Positions 31,146-55,424 of a stretch of 64,000 nt of DNA are shown one piece after another. Position numbers and translations under genes: made by a program. The stretch's first letter is position 1; the number at the start of each line of letters is the position of its first letter. The notes below the pieces were generated by a model. It saw nothing but the letters and a program-made list of their open reading frames with translations, did no database searches and was not told the DNA's origin. The stretch comes from Adineta ricciae (lineage: Eukaryota > Rotifera > Eurotatoria > Adinetida > Adinetidae): positions 1 to 64,000 of the forward strand of contig CAJNOJ010000310.1 in the NCBI GenBank assembly GCA_905250025.1, written 5' to 3'.

Positions 31146-33107
<1,962 letters not shown>

Positions 33108-33386: not shown

Positions 33387-36019
33387 ATGTTTTATACACA
33401 TGCGATATTGACCAAACGTGGTCCTTTAGCTCGTCTATGGCTTGCAGCACATTGGGATAAAAAATTAACTAAAGCACAAATTTTCGAAACAGATATTCGA
33501 CTTAGTTGCGAATCGATTCTTGAACCATGTCTAAAACTAGCATTACGTACGAAAGGACATTTATTACTTGGAGTTGTGCGAATCTATTCACGGAAAACGA
33601 AATACTTATTAGCGGATTGCAATGAAGCGTTTATTAAAATTAAAATGGCTTTTCGACCGGGAGTTGTGGGGATTGAAGGATCAAATACACATAGTGTCAA
33701 TGTCGACCCCGATACCCGAGAAGTTTCAATTGCTGCAATAACTTTACCAGAAAATTTTCACGATTTTGATCTAATCGATCTTAACATAGAGTAAGTTTCA
33801 TGCTTATTATATCGAAACAAAGATATGACTGGATAAAGATCAGTGTAATTGATTTTTCTATTCGATTTAGTTATATCGATGATCCAACTCGGTTTCAAAT
33901 GCATCAAGCACGTGCAGAAGAAATCACATTGAAGGAAGATTTTATCAGTGTGCCTATGCCAATGGATGATGATTTTGGTAAGGATAAACTAAAGAAGATG
34001 AACAGTGATTGATAACATTATCTGTCTTTTAGGCGATGCTAACGGACTCGATGAACCTGAGTTCTTTCGTAAACTTCAACCATCAGTACATTTGAATGCA
34101 CAAAATTCAAATCTAGATTTAGATGGTAGGAAAAACCATGCTGAAAATTCGAATTTTTCGTCAATTGAACCTTTTCAGATACAACTATGCGTAAAAAACA
34201 AAGTATTGCTCGACCATTCGGCGATGATCCATTTGCATTGGATGGTTTTGGAGATTGTACGTATTATGAATTAAGAAGAGATAATCTAATCTGATCAGAT
34301 AAGGCATTTGCAAAATTCTGTAATCAATCAGTTCTATAGAATAGCCCTAGTAGAAGCACCATTATATGTTCAGTGATTTGATTTACAGATGAAGGAAGAA
34401 TGGTTTTCTACCTTTTAGTTGCTGGACCTAGCTCAGTGATTGGTATTGGCGATGATAATTCAGATTTAGCCAATGGTAAAAGTCATTATGATCATGTCAT
34501 GTCACCATTTCATCGTAAGTCAAGGTATAATGTGGAACAGTACATAGATATATCATCTATTTGCAGATGATGACAATGATCCTGCTATACCCACACTTAA
34601 TGATCATGCAGCTCCAGCTAGTGAACGGAATCAAGGTATGAAGAAGAATAGGAATGAAGAGATTTTCTCAAAACTGTGTACGTCTTTAGATGATGGCGAT
34701 AATCGTATGGATGTTGAAGGAGACAATCAAGGCATTCAACACATTCCAGGTGTTGATGACACAACACTTCTATCTAATGTTTCGGATGAGTTTGTTCTAC
34801 CACCTATTTTAACATCAGGTGAGAATCAACGAACTCTTTATATGTAAATTTCCTTATCTTTGTTTTCTTTTGCCGAGTAGCGCAAACACCTGCAGCAAAT
34901 CGGCAAGCAGCCAAACGCAAGCGGAAACTAGTTATTGATGAAGTGAAAGAAATCGACAGTACATCAATGAAAACGCAACTCAGTGATACAACAGATATTG
35001 TTGGTGTACTCGAATTAGCACCGCCGACGCGTCGCCTAATGCACTTGAAAGAAACCGGTGGAATCGAAAAGCTATTCTCTCTCAGTGCTACATCTGTATT
35101 TTCAAAAAGTCTGCAACAGGTAAAACAAATTCGTTGACCAACGAACGTTTCCTTTATGACCTCATCTTTCATAGTTATATTCACGCAATTTGACCACAAA
35201 AGCATTAGATCAAATGCCGCCGGATAATTATCAAATTCAACATGATCTTGCTATGGAACAACTTGAACGTGACAGAGACGATTCATCCATTGAACAAATG
35301 CGTGCTTCACATCATCATTATCTAGAAGTGCTAGGTTATGATTCACCCAATCGCTCAAGAAAACGTGGATTATCTCCGGGAAATGAATCGAACATGGATA
35401 AACGGCAACGTATGGAATCGATTCTACCGGGTGATTCCTTATTTTTTCCTCCGATGATAACATCTATGGATAATCTCATGGATGTCATGCCTGCGCCCAT
35501 GTCGCCAACGAGAAAGAGCGGACGAAAAGTTCATGAATTGAATCAGCTACCTCCATCGCCCTCACGCACACCCGGTAGTGCACGACGTAAGAAAGGAATG
35601 GGACATTTGAAAGAGAATCAGGATGAGCAAGACGATGACGAAGAAGAACATGGACAAACCACTACCGCTCAAGAAGTACGTAATTTATTTCGAAAAAAAA
35701 ATCTCTGATTACTATATAAAACCGCTGTTCTCTCCTCTAGGATTTTGAATCTGGCAAGAAATTGAATCGTCGTGCAAAAATCATGCTTAATGCTTTCGAA
35801 CGTTCTCTCGATTCAGCGGATGCACTTTCGTTTCACGATCATCTCTCGTCAGGCAACCCAAATTATCATACACGAAAATTGACTGCACAGAAATTTTATA
35901 CGCTATTAGTATTGAAAAAGTTGCAAGCTGTTGACGTTGAACAAAGTGAAGCATTTGGAGACATAACAGTAACACCGGGTGTGAATTTTCATCAGTATAT
36001 ATCCAGCGGCGGAAGATGA
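33387..36019 (+). CDS. RAD21: RAD21, cohesin kleisin subunit
   Basis: Ten exons (33387-33790, 33871-33977, 34033-34125, 34179-34256, 34419-34514, 34567-34635, 34690-34818, 34881-35119, 35175-35675, 35741-36019) give 664 residues. RAD21 closes the SMC1-SMC3 ring and is cut by separase at anaphase. The N-terminal SMC3-binding domain is highly conserved: [72 protein letters not shown]. The central STAG-binding region lies at about residues 341-415 ([44 protein letters not shown]). The C-terminal winged helix for SMC1 ends [15 protein letters not shown] and DITVTPG. An intron splits the central region after SKSLQQ. A related central region occurs in the neighbouring fusion gene. Confidence 0.96.
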
Positions 36020-36705: not shown

Positions 36706-39648
36706 TCAAAATTTTTCTTCGTAAAATCGAAATCGAAATGTAGCACAGTGATTTCGAATTGTTTGGGCCATAGTTGATGGTCCACAGAAGAAAACATCGA
36801 CATCATTTGCTGTCGAGGCATTTTCGCCTGAGATTAAATTACTAAACAAATCTTCCCATTTCGGTCGACCGATATGTGTTTTCGATTTTAAACTAGTAAA
36901 TATATCTTGTCCAGCTACTTGAGCCCAGATTTTAGTCACTAGATCTAATGGAACATTACCAATATTCTCATCATGCTTGATTTCTGTGAAATATAAATGA
37001 ATGTCAAGAAAACGCTTTTCATTAGAATTTGACGCTAGATAATATTCTTGTTCTTGTTCAAATTGACGAAGAAGATTGAGGAACCATTCGAAATTCTTTT
37101 GGTCTCGATTCACCCAAATAAAATCGACTTTTTTCAGACGATGATTTTCGACAAGTCCTTTGGAATTGTAATTGATTCCATTACAGTATTTACAAACAAC
37201 ACGCGACGCACGAAATTGTGCCATGAGACTTGATAATATCGATGCATATGGTGTGATACCAATACCACCGCCAATCAAAACAACATGTTTACAGTCGAAT
37301 ATGTAACGAGCACATGAAGAATAAGGTCCATTGATCACCACAGGTTCTCGTTTTTTGAATTTCATTCGACATTTGCCTGCATATACTTCACTTCCATCAT
37401 CATCACCACAGTGATCTTTATTGATAGCTTGAAGATCTGCAACCGATTGTTCGGGATGAAGATCAGCACGGTAAACTTTGACGTGATTTTCTCGAGCGTC
37501 ATCTTCAGACATTTCTTTGAAACGTTGATAAACCTGCTTCGTCCAATTACCAACAGCTTGGATATGTACGCGAAGATTGCCCATTTCTTCAGGTGCACTA
37601 CTGATCGTAAATGGATGGAATTCGTAGAGTGCAACACGTGGTAAATTGATACTTATATAATCACCTGGTTGAAAACTAGAAATCACACACAAGAAAACTG
37701 AAAAGGAACGTCGCCAAGTAGAACATACGTGAAATTTTTTGGTCGATGTATATTCAAACTAATAACATTCGACTGTTCGATAGTTGCTGAATGAAGATAA
37801 GTGCGGCCACTTCGAACAGAATATCTTGTTAAAATTGAATAGGTTTTTTCCAATAGGAAAAGAGATAATGGGCCCACGATCCATTTCTACAAAAAAAGTC
37901 ACCTGTAAAGTTCCGCGCATAGACCCATGTTGAACATACCCAAAAGTTTCCTGCGTGCAAAATAAGAAGAATGAAAAACGGAAAGTATAGTAAATGTGTC
38001 CAATAGAAAATCTATATAAAGAACAGTTAGAATTGAAGATAACAGAAGATAAAAATTACTTGAAAATGACCACCACGACGAATCCATTGCATGGAACAAA
38101 TAACAATGACAGCAAGGATGATACATAAGATAACACCAGTCAATGGCGCAAGGCCTCCAACCCAACCTAGATTAGGTCTTGTCGCAAACTAAAGAAACCG
38201 AGATGTTCATTCTATAGAAAAGACAAGTAAACGTACCATGTAAGTTCCCCAGGAATGATCTAAATATTGAAAAATGAAAAGATCTTTCGTCGTGAGGCAA
38301 ATCATTCGTACCTGTAAGTCTTCCGAAGTTAGCCATATGTGCGATTGTATGTACGATTGATAGAACGGCAATAAATCGTCCGACGATTTTATGAAAGTCA
38401 ATATGATCATCAACAGGAATGATCTTCCGTAGAAAACTATTCGTACGAATGATCAATATTGTTTGTTTAAGCATCAGTGTAATGACAAGTGCACAATTGA
38501 AATTCAGCAACATTCCACCAATACGTGCAACAACAACAAATGCATGTGATCTGGTCACTGTTATTCGATAAATAATAACATAGATGGCCAAAGCTAGATT
38601 TACCAAAATGTACAGAATGAAAACGATGATACTCGATAGATTATCCTTGATATAGTCTATTGTTAGTCTATTTTTTCGTGCTTCGTATATGACTTGTTGA
38701 TGGCAGTGATGACTAAAAAATCGTTGAATTTTACTTTCTTTGACCGTTGGATTAGTGGGTGTTTTAATAAACCATGTTGGATGAACAGTAAATTGAGATA
38801 AAGATTCAAGTAGTGTCGCATCTTTGGATACAATTGAATAGAATTCTTCGAAATCAATTCGAGTTTTCTAAAATAAAATAAATGCATTCGATTGCACTTT
38901 TTTTATATCAATTAAAGTTGTCTTTTTTACTTGATCGAGATGAAACTTTTTTAGAAGCACTTGGATAACCTCTTGCAAACGATTGGCATCGAATGTTTTC
39001 AAACCTTGTAAATATTTCTCATAGAAAAATGCCAGTTCATTACTTGTTATATAACGATCACCATCTTCGTCGAGCATCATGAAAAAGAGAAGCGCGCGAA
39101 CGTCCATCGTACTATTCAGCGCTCGTGTTAGCTTTCGTACTTCGCACTTGCTCAAAGTCTTTATACTATCATCGTCATCGGTAGACGAATAGAGAGCATT
39201 AACAAGTCGTTCGATGACAAACGTTTGAGTATTGAGTAATTTGGACACTTCTTCTAATGGTAGATTCTCATTTGGTAAATGGTCACTGGCACGACGTGCA
39301 AATGCCGGTAGAGATTCTTCAGGTTCATTAAGTAAACTTTGCAGTTGAATTTCGGCTCTTTGCCGATTCGAAATGGTTCGTTGGATTAAACTGAAAAAAT
39401 AAACATCCGTTCAAATCAAATAAACACTCTTTCGGCAAGAACACGAACTTGTTGAAAAATCCACCATTGCTTCCTGAGGGTGTTCGCAAAAACGAAGAAA
39501 ACACTGGTGTTGATTGATGACTAATCTTACGCCTTAGAGGACGAGGCTGCTGTTGTGGCAGAGCAACAGCTACTGTATTAATGATCGCTGGCTGCGAGGA
39601 AACATCCATTGAGAGAGTCGTGTGCGGGCTTTCATCCGTGTTCGACAT
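36706..39648 (-). CDS. NOX5: NOX5-like calcium-regulated NADPH oxidase
   Basis: Eight exons (39449-39648, 38931-39390, 38312-38867, 38237-38259, 38060-38188, 37940-38011, 37729-37886, 36706-37675) give 855 residues. NOX enzymes pass electrons from NADPH through FAD and two haems to oxygen, making superoxide. A disordered N-terminus is followed by an EF-hand region; loop DEDGDRYITSNE (about 174-185) looks competent. Six membrane helices include haem-ligand histidines in FHKIVGRFIAVLSIVHTIAHM and in THLLYFPFFILLILHAGNFW. The FAD site is HPFTISSAPEE. NADPH sites are GGGIGITPYASIL, VDFIWVNRDQ and FFCGPSTMA, and the end is FRFRFYEEKF as in NOX5. One exon is only 23 bp. The first intron uses donor GTTCGT, as in PINK1. 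Confidence 0.93.
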
Positions 39649-40425: not shown

Positions 40426-40763
40426 TTAACAACGCCAGTCAGGAATGCATTGACTTTTCGAATGAGTACGACGCGCATAACCACGTTTACAGAAACAGCC
40501 TTGAACACATTGATACGTGCATGGTTTAAAATATCTTGCATATCGAACATCAGCGCATGAAAGTGGACAGGCGGAACCGCATCTTAAATATTCTTGATGC
40601 GCACCTAAACACCATTGACCAAACAGGAAACCTAGAAAAGTATCCAAAGTTGATTTTCTCCGAATCGACGACTTTTCTCTCAGATGACTTTACCGTTCGT
40701 TTGACTAACGAGTGTAGCTAGAATCAGGATCAATAGCAAGCTGAGACGAATCGATACGGTCAT
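40426..40763 (-). CDS. Secreted TIL-type protease inhibitor-like protein
   Basis: Exons 40694-40763 and 40426-40631 give 91 residues. A signal peptide (MTVSIRLSLLLILILATLVS) is encoded by the first exon. The mature part has ten Cys in the trypsin-inhibitor-like (TIL) pattern: WC, RCGSACPLSCADV, KPCTYQCVQGCFCKRGYARR, SQCIPDWRC. TIL domains inhibit serine proteases or form extracellular modules. The reactive site normally lies between the fifth and sixth Cys and cannot be assigned confidently here. It sits between NOX5 and the GART-like gene, apparently unrelated to either. Confidence 0.87.
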
Positions 40764-41420: not shown

Positions 41421-44400
41421 TTAATAAGATGAAGGTGTAATTGACGTAGTTGAATTGATTTTACTCATGCGTCGTTTACCCTGATAGACAATCTTTCCTG
41501 ACGCCACTAAATCAATTGCTTTCGGATACAATTGTTGTTCGAGTGTACGCAGACGATTTTCCAGTTGCATTTCCGTTTCGATCGGTGCCACAGATAAACT
41601 TTCCTGGGCAATGATAGGTCCATCGTTGTCCGTATCTGATTCACCAATAAAATGAACTGTCACACCTGTTATACGTACACCTGTTTGTAAAGCATCACGA
41701 ATTGGCGAACTACTATGACGAAATGATGGTAACAACGATGGATAGATACTTAACAAACGTCCACGCCACGCCATAATAAACGAATGTGATAAACGACATG
41801 TATAACGATCGAGAATAACTAATTCACAGCCATGTAGTTGTAATTCGTCGTCCACTTTTTGATCCTGAACGATGAAAAAGAAGTAAAACTTCTATGTAAT
41901 GAAAGGAATTCAAATGAACTATTTACCAAATCGTAATGTCGAGCAGCGTATTTCTTCGGTTGAATCACTTTGGTGACCACGGAGGGATGTAATTCATTCA
42001 CGCGAGCAATATCTGATAGGCCAGCTACTGTTGAAAGTACAAGAACGATCTCGAATGCACATTCAAGTGTTGATGTACTATAAGCAAGAAGTGAAAGTAA
42101 GGAAGTGTCTAAAAAAAACGAGCAGATATAGAAATCGTCATATTGTCTCGAGATTGGTTTACCATTGTTAGAGATAAGTACAGCACAACGTGTTTTGTCA
42201 TTTGCAATCGGTTGTTTCATTCGATCTTTGATTACGACAGGTGCACTATTGTTTGTTAATGCACCAGCTGTTTGATACGGTTTCGGATATTTGAAAGAAA
42301 TATTTTTCAACTGAACAGTACGTGGTTGTGGTGGAGTGACAATTGGTTGTTGCGGTGTACGAATTGGTTTACGTGTTGGAGCTGGATCTAAGAAGAAAAC
42401 ATCGAAACATAGATAAAACAACATTTCGAATTTCAACTTACTTATTGACATAAATGTTCCTAGATAAAAACTTGACGTATGTGTTTCAGTTAGATGACGA
42501 AGAAGATCTTCGGTAGTAATTTTTGTATGATCAACAAGAAGCATATAGTCGACACCACAGTTAAAATATTCGAACATTTCATCTTGACTAAAACCACTCT
42601 GAAAAGAAGAGAATTGAATTGTACGAACAAGAAAGCACGATTAATCTTACATGTTGATAGATCCAAGTAAAAAGTGGTGGCATTACAGGCCATTGTTGAC
42701 CATTTAAGTCAATATTCAATGTTGATATGAATGGACCAAGTAGAGATTCAATCATACGAGCCAAACCAATATCTAAATGAATAAGTAGATAGGATTTTTA
42801 TTAATCCAAAGCTAAGCTACATACCTTTGAGATAACGAACTGCTTTGATCGTTCGATTTCTAATCAGTTCACCAATGGTCTTAGTTAGTGACGATGCTAA
42901 CACGGATGATTTTTGTAGCAATAACGAGAAAAAAGACTCTTCTTCACCATCAGCAGTTCGAAAAGGTACCGTATCGTTCAAATGAATATTTTTCTTTTGG
43001 AATAACTCTTTTAACTGTACATAGCCTTGCGTATTAACTGTACCCGAACTACTTCGAATAGCCACTAAGAAATCACCTTCGTTAATTGTTGGATGATTTG
43101 TATTATTCAGTGTAGTAAATTCTCTATCACATAGACCTGTACATAATGAACTGAACGATGATGATGATATAGCAGAACTGGTTGTTTTAAGAAGTGTACA
43201 ATCAAGTTGTTGACACGCTTGTTCGATTCCTTGATAGAAACGTTGAATTGAACGGCGTGATGATATTGGTGAAGAGCAACATTGAATGTAAAGTGTACGA
43301 GCACAAACAAGATCATTCGCACATCGAACAGTGAGTTCGTGACCAAGATATTCGAAAACAGTTTGACAATCACTCATATCGCTATCATTTAAATTGAATA
43401 ATGCTGCTAATGGATTCAAATTGATTGTTGACGATACGAGAACAGGTTGCTTATAGGTTTTCAGATCGATTTTGCTTGACAAATCAAAATATGTTTCACC
43501 TTCATGAACATTATGATCATCGAATGTACCATTATTTTGATAGATATCCATATGTTCCAATTTCGGCGTGTCGGATACGGTGCCAAATGCTCGTTCGAAA
43601 TCCATCGGTTCAGCGTCGTCATCTTCATCTTCATCCTCATCATTATCATCACTAGTTTCATTCTCTTCATTGTAATTGTCTTTATCTTGTTCGGAATTTT
43701 TCGTGTTACGACGACGATTTGTCGAATTGCGATTTCGTTTATTCGATCCCGATAGAAGCGAGATTTTCTTTTTCACCTTCTTCTTTTTACCATTGGTTAA
43801 ACCATCAGTTGACGAGTGATTGCGATTAACACGCGTCTTATACCATTCAATCGCTTGTGCACCAATATCCGATTTAAAAAAGAGACCGTCAACATTAGCA
43901 TGCTGTTTGATATATTCACAGGCAAGTACCGATTGAATTTGTGCTTCCTGTAAGGTCGAACCATAACCAAGCACGTTGAAGATTCGTTCACCGCTTGTTG
44001 TTATGAAACTTGTTTCACCTGTTCCATTATTGTTAACATTCACATCTGTCTGATTGTGAAAGATTTTCACTTTGTTATTTTTCGTTGCGGTCGATAGAAC
44101 TTTGTTCGAAATAGTTAAAGACGATTTCGTTGATGTTATAGTTGTATTCACACAGTGAACACGACGCTTTTTGCTTGTCAAAGGTATGATCGGAACCGAC
44201 GGTAAATCTAATGCATATTGAAGAAGCACATCGGGTTCGCATAATGACAAGATAATCTCTGCTTCGGGTTCTTCAAATGTGGATACATAGTCAAGTAGAC
44301 AGACTTGATTGTAATTCGATCCTTGAATCAATAAACGAAAACCAAACAAATGACGAATCGTTGGTGAACATCGAAGTGTACGTTCAACAATACGACGACG

Positions 44401-46065
44401 AACATAGGATAATTGTTTTGATGTTAAATATGGACATGGACCATAAGCACCCATTCGTAATGGATCAGATTGTATTATTGGCAATTGAGTATAGTCACCA
44501 TCGCCATCACTTACAATGTATAAAATACAAACTTGATGATCGTCTGCTGAATAACCATGCTCGACGACGACGGATTGATTTAGTTTACCAAAGATATGAT
44601 CCTAGAAAACAAACAAGTCAGTTGATCGATCCGAGGTCAAGATTGTTTGTTTCATTTTTACATCGAAAACAGCTTTGATCGTTTGCATTGCCTCGTCTGG
44701 ACTTTTACAGTTGATTATACCATTACCATGTGTTCCACGAATTATCCATTGTTGTTGATTTGGAGATCTAATGGAGAGGAAGGAAATTTACCAAATATTT
44801 ACTATCTTCGATATGCTTACTTATTGATAAATGACCGAGCATCTTCTTCATTCAAACAATGTGTCCACTCTAATGTGGGAATTTTATGTTTACTCATAAA
44901 TTGCTTGGCATTTAATTGATTATCAGTTAACACTAATGTATCAACAGAACATCCTAAGTAATGTAAGCCATGTTCACAAAGACGTGCTTCAAGTTCTTCA
45001 AAATAAAATGTCTTATTTAACGATATAACTAGATCAATTTGTTTGGAATCGACATATTCTAAAAGATCTTTTTCGTTTTGGAAAACCGTCGAAATTGATC
45101 CTGTTGATTGATCGATTGTTGTGCCACTATTACCAGGTGATATAAAGATTTTGAAATTTCTTCGCTGTAATAACTTCCATACAAGCGCATGTTCGCATGC
45201 AGTTGAGCCAAGCACAAGTATTGTCGCTGGTACTGGTTGTGCCAATGATGTGCATGTCGAATAAGCGTCGTTGTCATCGGAACGTGCCAAAACACGCTCG
45301 AAGACACGCAAATCAGATGGTGCTGTATTCACGTCATTGTTTAATGATTTTGTGAATAGGACTCGATCGAATAGTTTTTGTAACGTTTTCGAATAGATTT
45401 TCGTTGACGATGAGACAAAAAGATTTCCACCAAGTTCTTTTAAGTGCAATAAACGTTTTGTTGGAACTTCAATAATAGGTTGTGTGATGATATCCTCAAC
45501 ACTGTTCAATTGCTCTTTGATTCCTTCGGATGATTGTTCAGTTTCATTATCAATAATTAGACCCGATTGAGTTTGAGCGACATTTGTCGACGACGATGTC
45601 GACTGGTTCTCACGTTGACGATAGGCGCCTGATGAAGAGATACGCGACCGCTTGTTGCCGCCACCACGGTTGTTCGCCTGCGACATCTGATACAACTTTA
45701 GCAATATATCGTTCAATATCAACTACAATAGAAACACAAACATCATTGTATTCATTAAAAAACTCTCTTATAAATTGAAATATGTCATCACAATTAAGAA
45801 TAATAAGATTTAAACGAACAATATCATGTAAAAAGAAAATCTAGTAGAACTCAATAGACGAAAGGCAAGGTGGATGTTTTGTTTATTTACCTTTTCATGT
45901 TAAATATATAAACCACCAATAGTAAATAAAGAACGACCTCCAAGTTGGAGAGATGTCGCCTACTTACCTCACCAATTAATTTACAGCATGGCGCTAGTTC
46001 CATCTGCCTTGCGATTGCATGTCCAGTAACCAATATAAAGTTCGTCGGAATTTCAGCAGAGAGTA
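41421..46065 (-). CDS. Kleisin STAG-binding segment fused to degenerate GARS-AIRS-GART
   Basis: Exons 44821-45722, 44662-44767, 42825-44601, 42651-42772, 42442-42598, 42163-42387, 41927-42108 and 41421-41864; an exon at 45968-46065 joins upstream in phase, but its own start is not found. From Met at 45686 the product is 1,292 residues. Residues ~42-115 match the RAD21 centre (GLIIDNETE, KEQLNSVEDIIT, PTKRLLHLKELGG, STKIYSKTLQKLF). From ~154 the fold order of trifunctional GART follows: GARS (TILVLGSTACEHALVWKLL, FISPGNSGTT, RMGAYGPCP), an acidic insert, AIRS (EYLGHELTVRCANDL; FEYFNCGVDYMLLV) and GART (LLSIYPSLLPSF, TGVRITGVTVHF). Catalytic signatures are lost: FGDPE is FEEPE, the AIRS GTDGVGTK and GGETAE are gone, GTGSN is NNGDT, and the GART Asn/His pair is Ser/Tyr. 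I infer a pseudoenzyme, perhaps a cohesin-linked scaffold. Confidence 0.85.
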
Positions 46066-46286: not shown

Positions 46287-47534
46287 TCAATCTCTCATTA
46301 ATTCAATAACAAAATTAAATGCAACATGTTCACTCAATGGAAAAGATTGTTTAATAACTACTTGATAACAATTCATAATGAAATTGCTCAAGACCAATTT
46401 TCCACGTGGCAATCGTAGTTGATAACCCATTTGTTTACAATCTGGATTTGGGATACGTTCAACAATTGTTTGACTAATACCATCGTATACATAGAGTGTT
46501 GCTTGTCGAGCGCGTATCGTATTGAATGAACGAAAAGCACGTTGGCAAGTGAACCAAAACGAAGCACAATCAGTTGAGAATTGCGCGTTAGCTTGAAATA
46601 TCAAACCTTTATAAGCTAGTTTGTTGTCTTTTCGACCATTCAATATAATTGTATGCCGATTTGGATCATAATATGAGCGATCATCAACTACGACAGATAA
46701 AAGGTTAAGAACGGAATAATATATTTCGATCTACGTACTATATATGTGTTTGATTCCATAGGTTAAATCTGTTGGATCTTCTATTAAGCATAGAGAACGT
46801 GCGAGAAATGCTTTTTTAAATTTTTCATTCAACTGTGACTTCGCGACACAGGAGATTAGGTGACGTTTTTCCACATCACCTGTAAGTGATAGTAACTTGG
46901 TGCGTAATAAAGTTAAAATTTTAACGAAGTATTCATCTGGTAAACCGAGAAACATCATACCGTTTAATAGATCATCATAAAACAATAATTGTTGTGGACT
47001 TTGTTGTAGATTTTCATCAGAATATAATAGATCGATGCATGTTAATAGAGTTTTTTCTGTGAAATTAAATGTGCAATGATATTCATTCAAATAACATTGT
47101 TGACTAGAATCATAGGTTGACTCAGGTTGATTGTATTTGAAAAATAAACGAAAATAGATTGATGATGCGCTCAAAACAAGACGATGACATAGGACAGAGG
47201 ATGATAAACCGTTGCACGTATAAACCAAACGACAATCACAACAATGACGAGCAGATAGAAATGAACGAAGTTTAGAACTTAAACCAACTGACATCGGTGA
47301 TGAAGGTAAGTCTAAAGACAAAATACGTCACTCTTAAATACATTGTATGATAGAAAACATACCAAGATCTTCCTCGTCTTGAAATAACATTGAGTTATTT
47401 CGTTTTGTAGTAGTCGTTTGTGTTTTTGTATTTACAACCTGCATTTCCTTACGCACTTGTTTGCACACTAATACTTTTCCACTCGGTGTTGTTTTATTCG
47501 AAGATGCAGATGACCGATGACGTTCAATACACAC
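46287..47534 (-). CDS. BTB-like protein, possible FLYWCH-like tail
   Basis: Exons 47363-47534 (5' end uncertain), 46739-47311 and 46287-46687. Product is about 380 residues. After a Lys/Thr-rich start, residues CCDCRLVYTCNG...VLCHRLVLSASSIYFRLFF look like a BTB/POZ fold (D-x-x-L ... H-K/R-x-V-L-x-A-S-S-x-Y-F). A helical region resembling a BACK segment follows (DDLLNGMMFLGLPDEY, RSLCLIEDPTDLTYG). The last exon has HTIILNGRKDNKLAYKGLIFQAN...FWFTCQRAF...ARQATLYV, weakly like a FLYWCH zinc module. BTB proteins often recruit cullin-3 or act in transcription. The stop is 222 bp upstream of the first placed exon of the kleisin/GART gene on the same strand, so read-through or a shared transcript is possible. 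Confidence 0.6.
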
Positions 47535-54219: not shown

Positions 54220-55424
54220 TTTTTAAAAGATGTTTCGTCAAAAGCGTTCGTACACTAAGCTTGAATCTGTGTGAATAAACGATAACTAACTAAACTTGTA
54301 ATATAAATATAGCTGGTCGTGTTGTTTTTTCTTATCAATTTCTCTTGTGCAACTGTTACGGAGTGTGGGGGGAGAGAGAGCCAGATATTATCAATGTAAG
54401 GATAAAAACTCATAGATTAGAAATCATAAAAAAATACTGTAAAAGTGTCTTTTTTGTCGAGAAAAATTGTTTTCAACCGTATTCACTCGTGGTAATGTTA
54501 ATTTAATGAGTAACATCAAATATGAGACTTAATTGTTTGAGCAGGTCAAATTAAATGACTAATGAATGGTATTAGACTTTTCACACAAGGAAAAATCCTT
54601 TTTTTTGTGACACCTGACGATAAGTTGTATATGAATGTCGCGAACAAACATTCGAATATTCTTTTTTATGATTTCATTTCGCCATTAAAATAGCTGTTTC
54701 TATATCTATCGAAATCAAATTCGATAATTTGTTAATTCTTGCAGAATATATTTGAAATCATGAGAGCAATGAGATTTGTCGATTATCGCGACTCATAGAA
54801 CAGAAATGCTCTTTCATTTCGCATTAGTAAGAACAGATAAAGAATGACGTTATGTATATTCGCCATATAACCTGAAGTCATCTACTCATCTTGAAACGAC
54901 GATTCAAAATACAAGAATGTTTTGCTTCTCATTCCTAACCCACGATAAAATCCATTCGATTTACATTTACTGAATGATCTTGTGGAATACTATCGAGTTT
55001 TATTGATCTATGTTACGTGTAATAAACCAGAGATAATATTGTTGAGTCACACATTCCCATGAGAAAGCTTCATTTCGTCCATGATGTATCTATCGATAGT
55101 AGCATCTAGGTTGTATTCATGAAATCGATCGTTTCTCAAAGATAAACATCAACAACGTTCAAAACTGCTTTACAGTATAAAGAAAAAGTGACCTTGCCGA
55201 ATATCACATCAATCATACTGTTTATCTTGGTTAAGTAAAAATTTGCGAATCTTTTCGATATGCAAAGAAAAACAAATGAGTGCTTTAACCGCTACAGACA
55301 TCACACAACATCGAAAAATACTGGACATAGAGCGCACCGGAGACGTCTTACCGGCGATTAGTATAAAAATAATGTGTTATGGTAGTTTACAGAAATAAAA
55401 CAAAGAAACGAAAACCGGTCTGGA
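54220..55424. other. Intergenic, no gene recognised
   Basis: Contains the PMP3 promoter at its left edge. Otherwise AT-rich without coding signal; a GGGGAGAGAGAG run lies at 54369-54380. Confidence 0.45.

Follow-up and report, generated by a model that had tools for sequence, protein, structure and literature searches.

The fusion gene and its exon structure

We analysed a 64,000-nucleotide window of the bdelloid rotifer Adineta ricciae, contained in a contig of 115,049 bases (C310) of a 130-Mb genome. On the minus strand of the window, a gene at 45686-41421 encodes a protein of 1,292 amino acids (aa), in which a segment resembling the STAG-binding part of the kleisin RAD21 precedes a body with the domain order of the purine-synthesis enzyme GART. 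A first-pass annotation, made from the sequence alone, had proposed that a RAD21-like, STAG-contacting segment is joined to a GART that is complete but decayed; this proposal is supported by sequence searches, homologues in nine species, and the ratio of nonsynonymous to synonymous substitution (dN/dS). A RAD21 gene lies 5.4 kb from the stop codon of the fusion gene. The features are as follows.

33387..36019, plus strand: RAD21 gene, convergent neighbour, with Rad21_Rec8_N and Rad21_Rec8 domains
45687..46003, minus strand: upstream part, with a putative exon, an intron, and the start of exon 2 ahead of the annotated ATG
46003-45968, minus strand: putative first exon, ATG-bearing, donor GGTGAG/gtaagt, splice sites read
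45967-45723, minus strand: upstream intron of 245 nucleotides (nt), before exon 2
44821..45686, minus strand: first coding exon, with an N-terminal tail containing KRSR, the RAD21-like segment, a linker, and the GARS_N-like domain; donor gtaagc
45339..45563, minus strand: RAD21-like STAG-binding-type segment, 75 aa, GLIID...TKSLN, placed by sequence searches
44946..45224, minus strand: GARS_N-like domain, 46.4 bits
42825..44767, minus strand: coding exons 44767-44662 and 44601-42825, with decayed GARS ATP-grasp and C domain, basic/acidic linker, and most of the decayed AIRS
41927..42772, minus strand: coding exons 42772-42651, 42598-42442, 42387-42163, and 42108-41927, with the AIRS-like end, a linker, and the GARFT-like start
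41421..41864, minus strand: last coding exon, with the GARFT-like domain, Tyr at the catalytic His position, and the stop codon at 41423-41421

The eight coding exons form a single open frame with GT-AG introns of 52-62 nt, and the translation from the ATG at 45686 is letter-identical to the annotated A. ricciae protein P0001 (1292 aa). The segment and GARS_N share one uninterrupted exon (45722-44821, 902 nt) and one open frame, as described in the first pass, and the earlier segment coordinates were accurate to within one codon. A 36-nt exon and a 245-nt intron upstream can also be spliced in frame. This exon was rejected as coding and treated as a leader because the next exon, at the point of ATG 45686, is where the annotated protein begins with MSQ, as do 12 of the 17 other fusion proteins in the database (13/18 together). 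The earlier upstream limit of 46065 therefore probably includes non-coding sequence, and the part at 45687..46003 is probably a 5' untranslated region or a trans-splicing acceptor.

Origin and conservation of the RAD21-like segment

The segment aligns over nearly its full length with the STAG/SA-binding middle part of RAD21. A BLASTP comparison with the RAD21 of the window gave 35/83 identical residues (42%, E=4e-19 for a single comparison), and from the residues PT onward 24/42 are identical, in line with the "roughly half" noted in the first pass. When 177,635 distinct PDB sequences were searched with phmmer, nine distinct matches were obtained up to E=10, all of them RAD21 (best 7.7e-8) and one a RAD21-separase construct. 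The Smith-Waterman score against the window RAD21 was 150, whereas the highest of 2000 shuffles reached 53; the best score of other 75-aa windows of the fusion protein (every fifth start, starts 1-121 excluded) was 45. A search of the 130-Mb genome with the segment returned six matches, namely three fusion genes (on C310, C168, and C14) and three RAD21 genes. The identification as RAD21 central region therefore holds, at scores far above chance. The segment is short (75 aa), and convergence or chance resemblance might be considered on that account; the distance from the shuffled scores, the restriction to RAD21 in the PDB set, and the restriction to RAD21 and the fusions in the genome make this explanation very improbable.

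The fusion differs from RAD21 in several respects. Neither Rad21_Rec8_N nor Rad21_Rec8, the SMC-contact domains, was found in the fusion by Pfam scan, whereas both are present in the neighbouring RAD21; the fusion should therefore not close the cohesin ring as a kleisin. RAD21 has an intron inside the homologous stretch, its own STAG-binding segment being matched at 34928-35122 and continuing in the next exon from 35175, whereas the fusion segment has none. At all three loci of the genome, a fusion and a RAD21 gene are oriented convergently at a distance of about 10 kb, and these three RAD21 genes are the only places where the kleisin C-terminal domain was matched in the genome. This linkage points to the neighbouring RAD21 gene as the likely source of the segment, for which local duplication would be a route.

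A search of 5.8 billion proteins, in which only the 8000 candidates sharing the most words with the query were scored, gave 22 matches, and 18 of them carry the segment (P0001-P0018). The organism is named for 12 of these 18 and belongs to nine bdelloid species (three Adineta, five Rotaria, and Didymodactylos carnosus). By taxonomy, Adineta falls in Adinetida, and Rotaria and Didymodactylos in Philodinida, so the fusion spans two orders; the check for the same fusion in other bdelloids, suggested in the first pass, thus yielded orthologues. Three of the database proteins (P0014-P0016, 736-749 aa) hold the segment and GARS in one protein. The four matches without the segment are frog GART, two Kluyveromyces ADE5,7 entries, and an unnamed phosphoribosylamine-glycine ligase. 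Residues 40-160 used as query retrieved the same 18 proteins and nothing else at E<=0.01 (182 candidates). Even RAD21 was missed by this search, whose sensitivity is therefore limited; diverged fusions outside bdelloids could have escaped it. Within these limited protein searches, a kleisin STAG-binding segment on a non-kleisin decayed enzyme was not found in named organisms outside bdelloids.

Each of the three Adineta species has two fusion copies. In a FastTree tree, a second-copy clade containing Adineta and Rotaria has a support of 1.0 and is the only well-supported one, the first-copy type forming no supported clade; the duplication should therefore predate the Adineta-Rotaria split. The tree was rooted on Didymodactylos, a partial sequence with a long branch from Rotaria's own family by taxonomy, and the root is doubtful.

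The window fusion and its close homologue on C168 (1288 codons) differ by 103 synonymous and 27 nonsynonymous changes (dN/dS 0.071). Compared with the older duplicate on C14 (1224 codons), dS is 1.34, dN 0.199, and dN/dS 0.149, a rough value near saturation. In the segment alone, C310 and C168 show 8 synonymous and 0 nonsynonymous differences, and the dN/dS against C14 is 0.037 (saturated); the acidic linker is looser (0.31 in the C14 comparison). By these ratios, purifying selection acts strongly on both duplicated copy types of the fusion. The first-pass remark that the gene looks maintained fits this range (0.07-0.15, not near 1).

Identity between the A. ricciae and Didymodactylos proteins is 60/76 in the segment, 35/92 in GARS_N, 77/141 in GARS_A, 70/168 in the C part, and 43/100 at the AIRS start. 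Counting only the columns that are covered by Didymodactylos and by 16 or more of the 18 proteins, 48/76 are invariant in the segment and 74/409 in GARS. On these counts, the segment is the most constrained part that can be compared between the two species. The Didymodactylos fragment does not include the GARFT-like domain; among the other proteins this domain is held just as strongly, with 131/197 columns invariant in the 12 that cover it.

A RAD21 fragment and a GART pseudogene wrongly joined in the gene model or the assembly would be conceivable in a single assembly with RAD21 only 5.4 kb away. The segment and GARS_N, however, share an open frame at three loci of the genome, the segment and GARS occur together in 18 database proteins, and dN/dS is far below 1. 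For practical purposes such an artefact is already refuted, and we give it next to no credence.

Several other ORFs were seen around these genes. An NADPH-oxidase-like gene (36706-39410, minus strand) lies between RAD21 and the fusion, with two ORFs carrying ferric reductase, FAD-, and NAD-binding domains. An ORF with a trypsin-inhibitor-like cysteine-rich (TIL) domain is located at 40429-40689 (minus strand), and a Kelch-repeat ORF (32276-32554, minus strand) adjoins RAD21. Immediately upstream of the fusion gene, the ORF at 46734-47327 (minus strand) has a weak BTB/POZ match.

GART domains and the purine pathway

The Pfam order in the fusion is GARS_N, GARS_A, GARS_C (below its cut-off), and Formyl_trans_N. 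The AIRS part was not reached by Pfam and was found with purM (2.1e-13) and the AIR-synthase chain 2v9y (2.6e-15). The order GARS, AIRS, GARFT proposed for the protein is thereby confirmed, and it is the order of GART. Identity to frog GART is 24-38% per domain. Distinct from GART, the fusion has about 150 extra N-terminal residues with the RAD21 segment, a basic/acidic linker between GARS and AIRS, and changed active-site signatures in all three domains, which fail the equivalog cut-offs. The NCBIfam cut-offs for purD, purM, and purN are 288, 236, and 150 bits. Frog GART (P0019) passes all three (587/411/229 bits), whereas the A. ricciae fusion P0001 (126/50/104 bits) and the second copy P0011 (112/53/114 bits) fall below all three. 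The partial Didymodactylos protein scores 127 bits with purD and 28 bits with purM; purN is not covered. Of the columns identical in canonical proteins, a crude yardstick of only 2-3 proteins, P0001 keeps 59/138 in GARS, 42/141 in AIRS, and 27/54 in GARFT.

The Arg, Gly, and Asp of the GARS motif RFGDPE and the Asn of EFN are replaced in 18/18 fusion proteins. The lysine-glycine loop and NTGG of GARS, as well as DGVGTK and GGETAEMP of AIRS, are gone in the alignment rows shown. The PE of RFGDPE and MGAY mostly stay, and FNCG also remains. RFGDPE, NTGG, DGVGTK, GGETAEMP, and MGAY are signatures of the GARS and AIRS active sites. The first-pass claim that catalytic or phosphate-binding signatures are changed thus stands for all three domains, but not for every residue, given that MGAY and PE mostly persist.

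In GARFT, the position of His108 is Tyr in 12/12 proteins covering it, that of Asn106 is Asn in 9/12 and Ser in 3/12, and the Asp144 column holds Asn, Val, or Thr with an acidic residue adjoining, in a place where the alignment is ambiguous. His108 and Asp144 are the GARFT catalytic residues (PMC3261824), and the catalytic triad includes Asn106 (PMC4786211). Judged by its residues, the fusion is a catalytically dead enzyme. With catalytic residues lost and purifying selection persisting, it has the predicted character of a pseudoenzyme under constraint.

Family searches of the genome were run exon by exon in one assembly. GARS_N has three matches, all at the fusion loci; a separate canonical GART, the search for which had been recommended in the first pass, was accordingly rejected for the A. 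ricciae genome. The GARS_A search gave no match but also missed the window's own gene, and it was not counted. Formyl_trans_N gave nine matches, three of them the fusions. ORFs of five of the other six were read; by eye they look like methionyl-tRNA formyltransferase (C66, C179) or other formyltransferases (C227 twice, C21 once) and were rejected as GARFT, the second C21 match being left out of this reading. The two C227 matches (42525-43028 and 54843-55343) are very similar 327-aa open frames with a formyltransferase domain, about 12 kb apart, and were possibly acquired from bacteria.

The ATIC domain PF01808 and the PFAS domain GATase_5 had no match in the genome family search. Two AIRS_C matches (C29, C10) were rejected as AIRS or PFAS, since their ORFs read like selenophosphate synthetase. 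purF gave three weak matches, the best at 37.6 bits against a cut-off of 350. The positive control, IMPDH, scored 263.7 bits with the same tool and genome. From the families not found in this assembly, de novo purine synthesis appears to have been lost in bdelloids. No title on rotifer purine synthesis was found in the literature searched, of which the larger result sets were covered in part.

SAICAR synthetase matches occur at two loci only, both PAICS-like.

C113:254884-256584 (L010 1249-2949): PAICS-like protein, one long open frame
C133:108864-110546 (L011 1189-2871): PAICS-like protein, one long open frame

The best PDB match is the multifunctional protein ADE2 (2h31, human PAICS; 1.7e-55). 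The protein passes the Pfam cut-offs (AIRC barely), falls far below the purC and purE equivalog cut-offs, and has Tyr at the His303 position, as read from the alignment with the PDB match. In human PAICS, His303 is the general base, and its change to Tyr went with no growth in a complementation test (PMC9376930). A protein search gave 57 matches, the query included, and those with a legible organism are bdelloids (Philodina checked). Between the two A. ricciae loci, dN/dS is 0.124. By these measures, both parts of the PAICS-like protein, SAICAR synthetase and AIR carboxylase, are decayed, although bdelloids have kept the protein conserved. Like the fusion, it (C113, C133; P0023) is a purine enzyme kept in decayed, conserved, and duplicated bdelloid copies; unlike the fusion, no cohesin segment was seen in it, and its ORF starts like PAICS itself.

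These results also bear on whether the fusion could still function as a GART, with an atypical active site and an extension at the N terminus. The full domain order, the strong purifying selection, and the persistence of MGAY, the PE of RFGDPE, and FNCG would be expected of such an enzyme. All three domains, however, lie under the equivalog cut-offs; the EFN Asn and the RFGDPE Arg, Gly, and Asp are replaced throughout, as is the GARFT His by Tyr; and the alignment rows shown have lost the lysine-glycine loop, NTGG, DGVGTK, and GGETAEMP. In addition, the genome searches for the ATIC and PFAS families gave no match, and Tyr stands in place of His303 in the PAICS-like protein. We regard a working GART as highly unlikely.

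A possible role at STAG

Residues 351-450 of human RAD21 are enough to bind SA2 in insect cells; joint mutation of L385 and F389 weakens the binding, and joint mutation of L385, F389, and T390, in the helix 383-392, abrogates it (PMC3709894). The L385 position is Leu in 18/18 fusion proteins, and one copy type retains F389. The genome has two loci that encode STAG. A KRxR motif is present at residues 12-15 in 5/5 fusion proteins scanned, and between GARS and AIRS a lysine-rich stretch precedes an acidic tract.

On balance, and only just so, we judge it probable that the fusion is a bdelloid nuclear pseudoenzyme docking on STAG by a segment borrowed from RAD21, with STAG binding, nuclear location, partners, and ligand all predicted from sequence. 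An ancestral trifunctional GART would have gained the N-terminal STAG-binding segment of the neighbouring RAD21, presumably through local duplication. The three GART active sites have decayed, as the sequence shows, and the other steps of de novo purine synthesis would have been lost, in either order. The N-terminal segment would lie along the STAG subunit as RAD21 does. The fusion could then occupy STAG in place of RAD21, either forming a cohesin-free STAG complex or limiting cohesin assembly; alternatively, the dead GART body with its basic/acidic linker would be brought to chromatin-bound STAG. This body might serve as a scaffold or as a switch that responds to a ligand, possibly in company with the decayed PAICS-like protein. 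The first pass had likewise suggested a scaffold or a nucleotide-sensing chromatin factor.

Several observations weigh against docking on STAG. The T390 position is Asp in 18/18 fusion proteins, and the F389 position is Phe in 11/18 and Ile in 7/18, Ile marking the second copy type; affinity or partner may have changed with these substitutions. The CTCF-type STAG-surface motif and the YSR motif were not found in the five fusion proteins scanned, and an FGF triplet, present in 4/5, lies inside the GARS-like part. Between copy types, constraint is weaker on the N-terminal tail, which carries the basic motif (dN/dS 0.39 over 41 codons, C14 comparison). The GARFT-like domain is so strongly conserved as to suggest that it does something by itself, possibly binding a ligand. 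RAD21 also has an N-terminal SA-binding motif (PMC3709894), in a domain that the Pfam scan did not find in the fusion.

The chief rival explanation, which we consider possible but doubtful, is that the segment now serves dimerisation or has adapted to a different partner, such as a loader, a releasing factor, or a HEAT-repeat protein outside cohesin; the protein would then not act through STAG, and the GARFT-like part may be the main functional one. The uniform Asp at T390 and the Ile at F389 in 7/18 fit this explanation, as do the strongly conserved GARFT-like domain and a conservation that extends into the linker (FERVLAR), past the end of the BLASTP alignment with RAD21. Against it, much of the RAD21 pattern, L385 among it, persists in the segment, and the whole segment is conserved.

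If docking on STAG is nonetheless the function, a further step can be imagined, and we think it unlikely as a whole. In an ancient asexual lineage without purine making, orphaned GART and PAICS would have turned into a chromatin apparatus. The pseudo-GART would grip STAG via the segment of the next-door RAD21, form a ring-free STAG complex, and couple purine status or post-desiccation chromosome repair to cohesin through the ligand-responsive dead GART body and the PAICS-like partner. Bdelloids have no conventional sex, and they rebuild broken chromosomes.

Repurposed pseudoenzymes and domain fusions are known kinds. Neither such a protein nor a loss of purine synthesis in bdelloids was found in the titles and abstract openings of the open-access literature searched, the larger result sets being covered in part. 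If STAG is bound, the fusion would, as a ligand of STAG, be an imitation of the kleisin itself. The apparent loss of the pathway suggests that bdelloids depend on food for purines, and the fusion and the PAICS-like protein would be a natural case in which two enzymes of a lost pathway outlive their chemistry.

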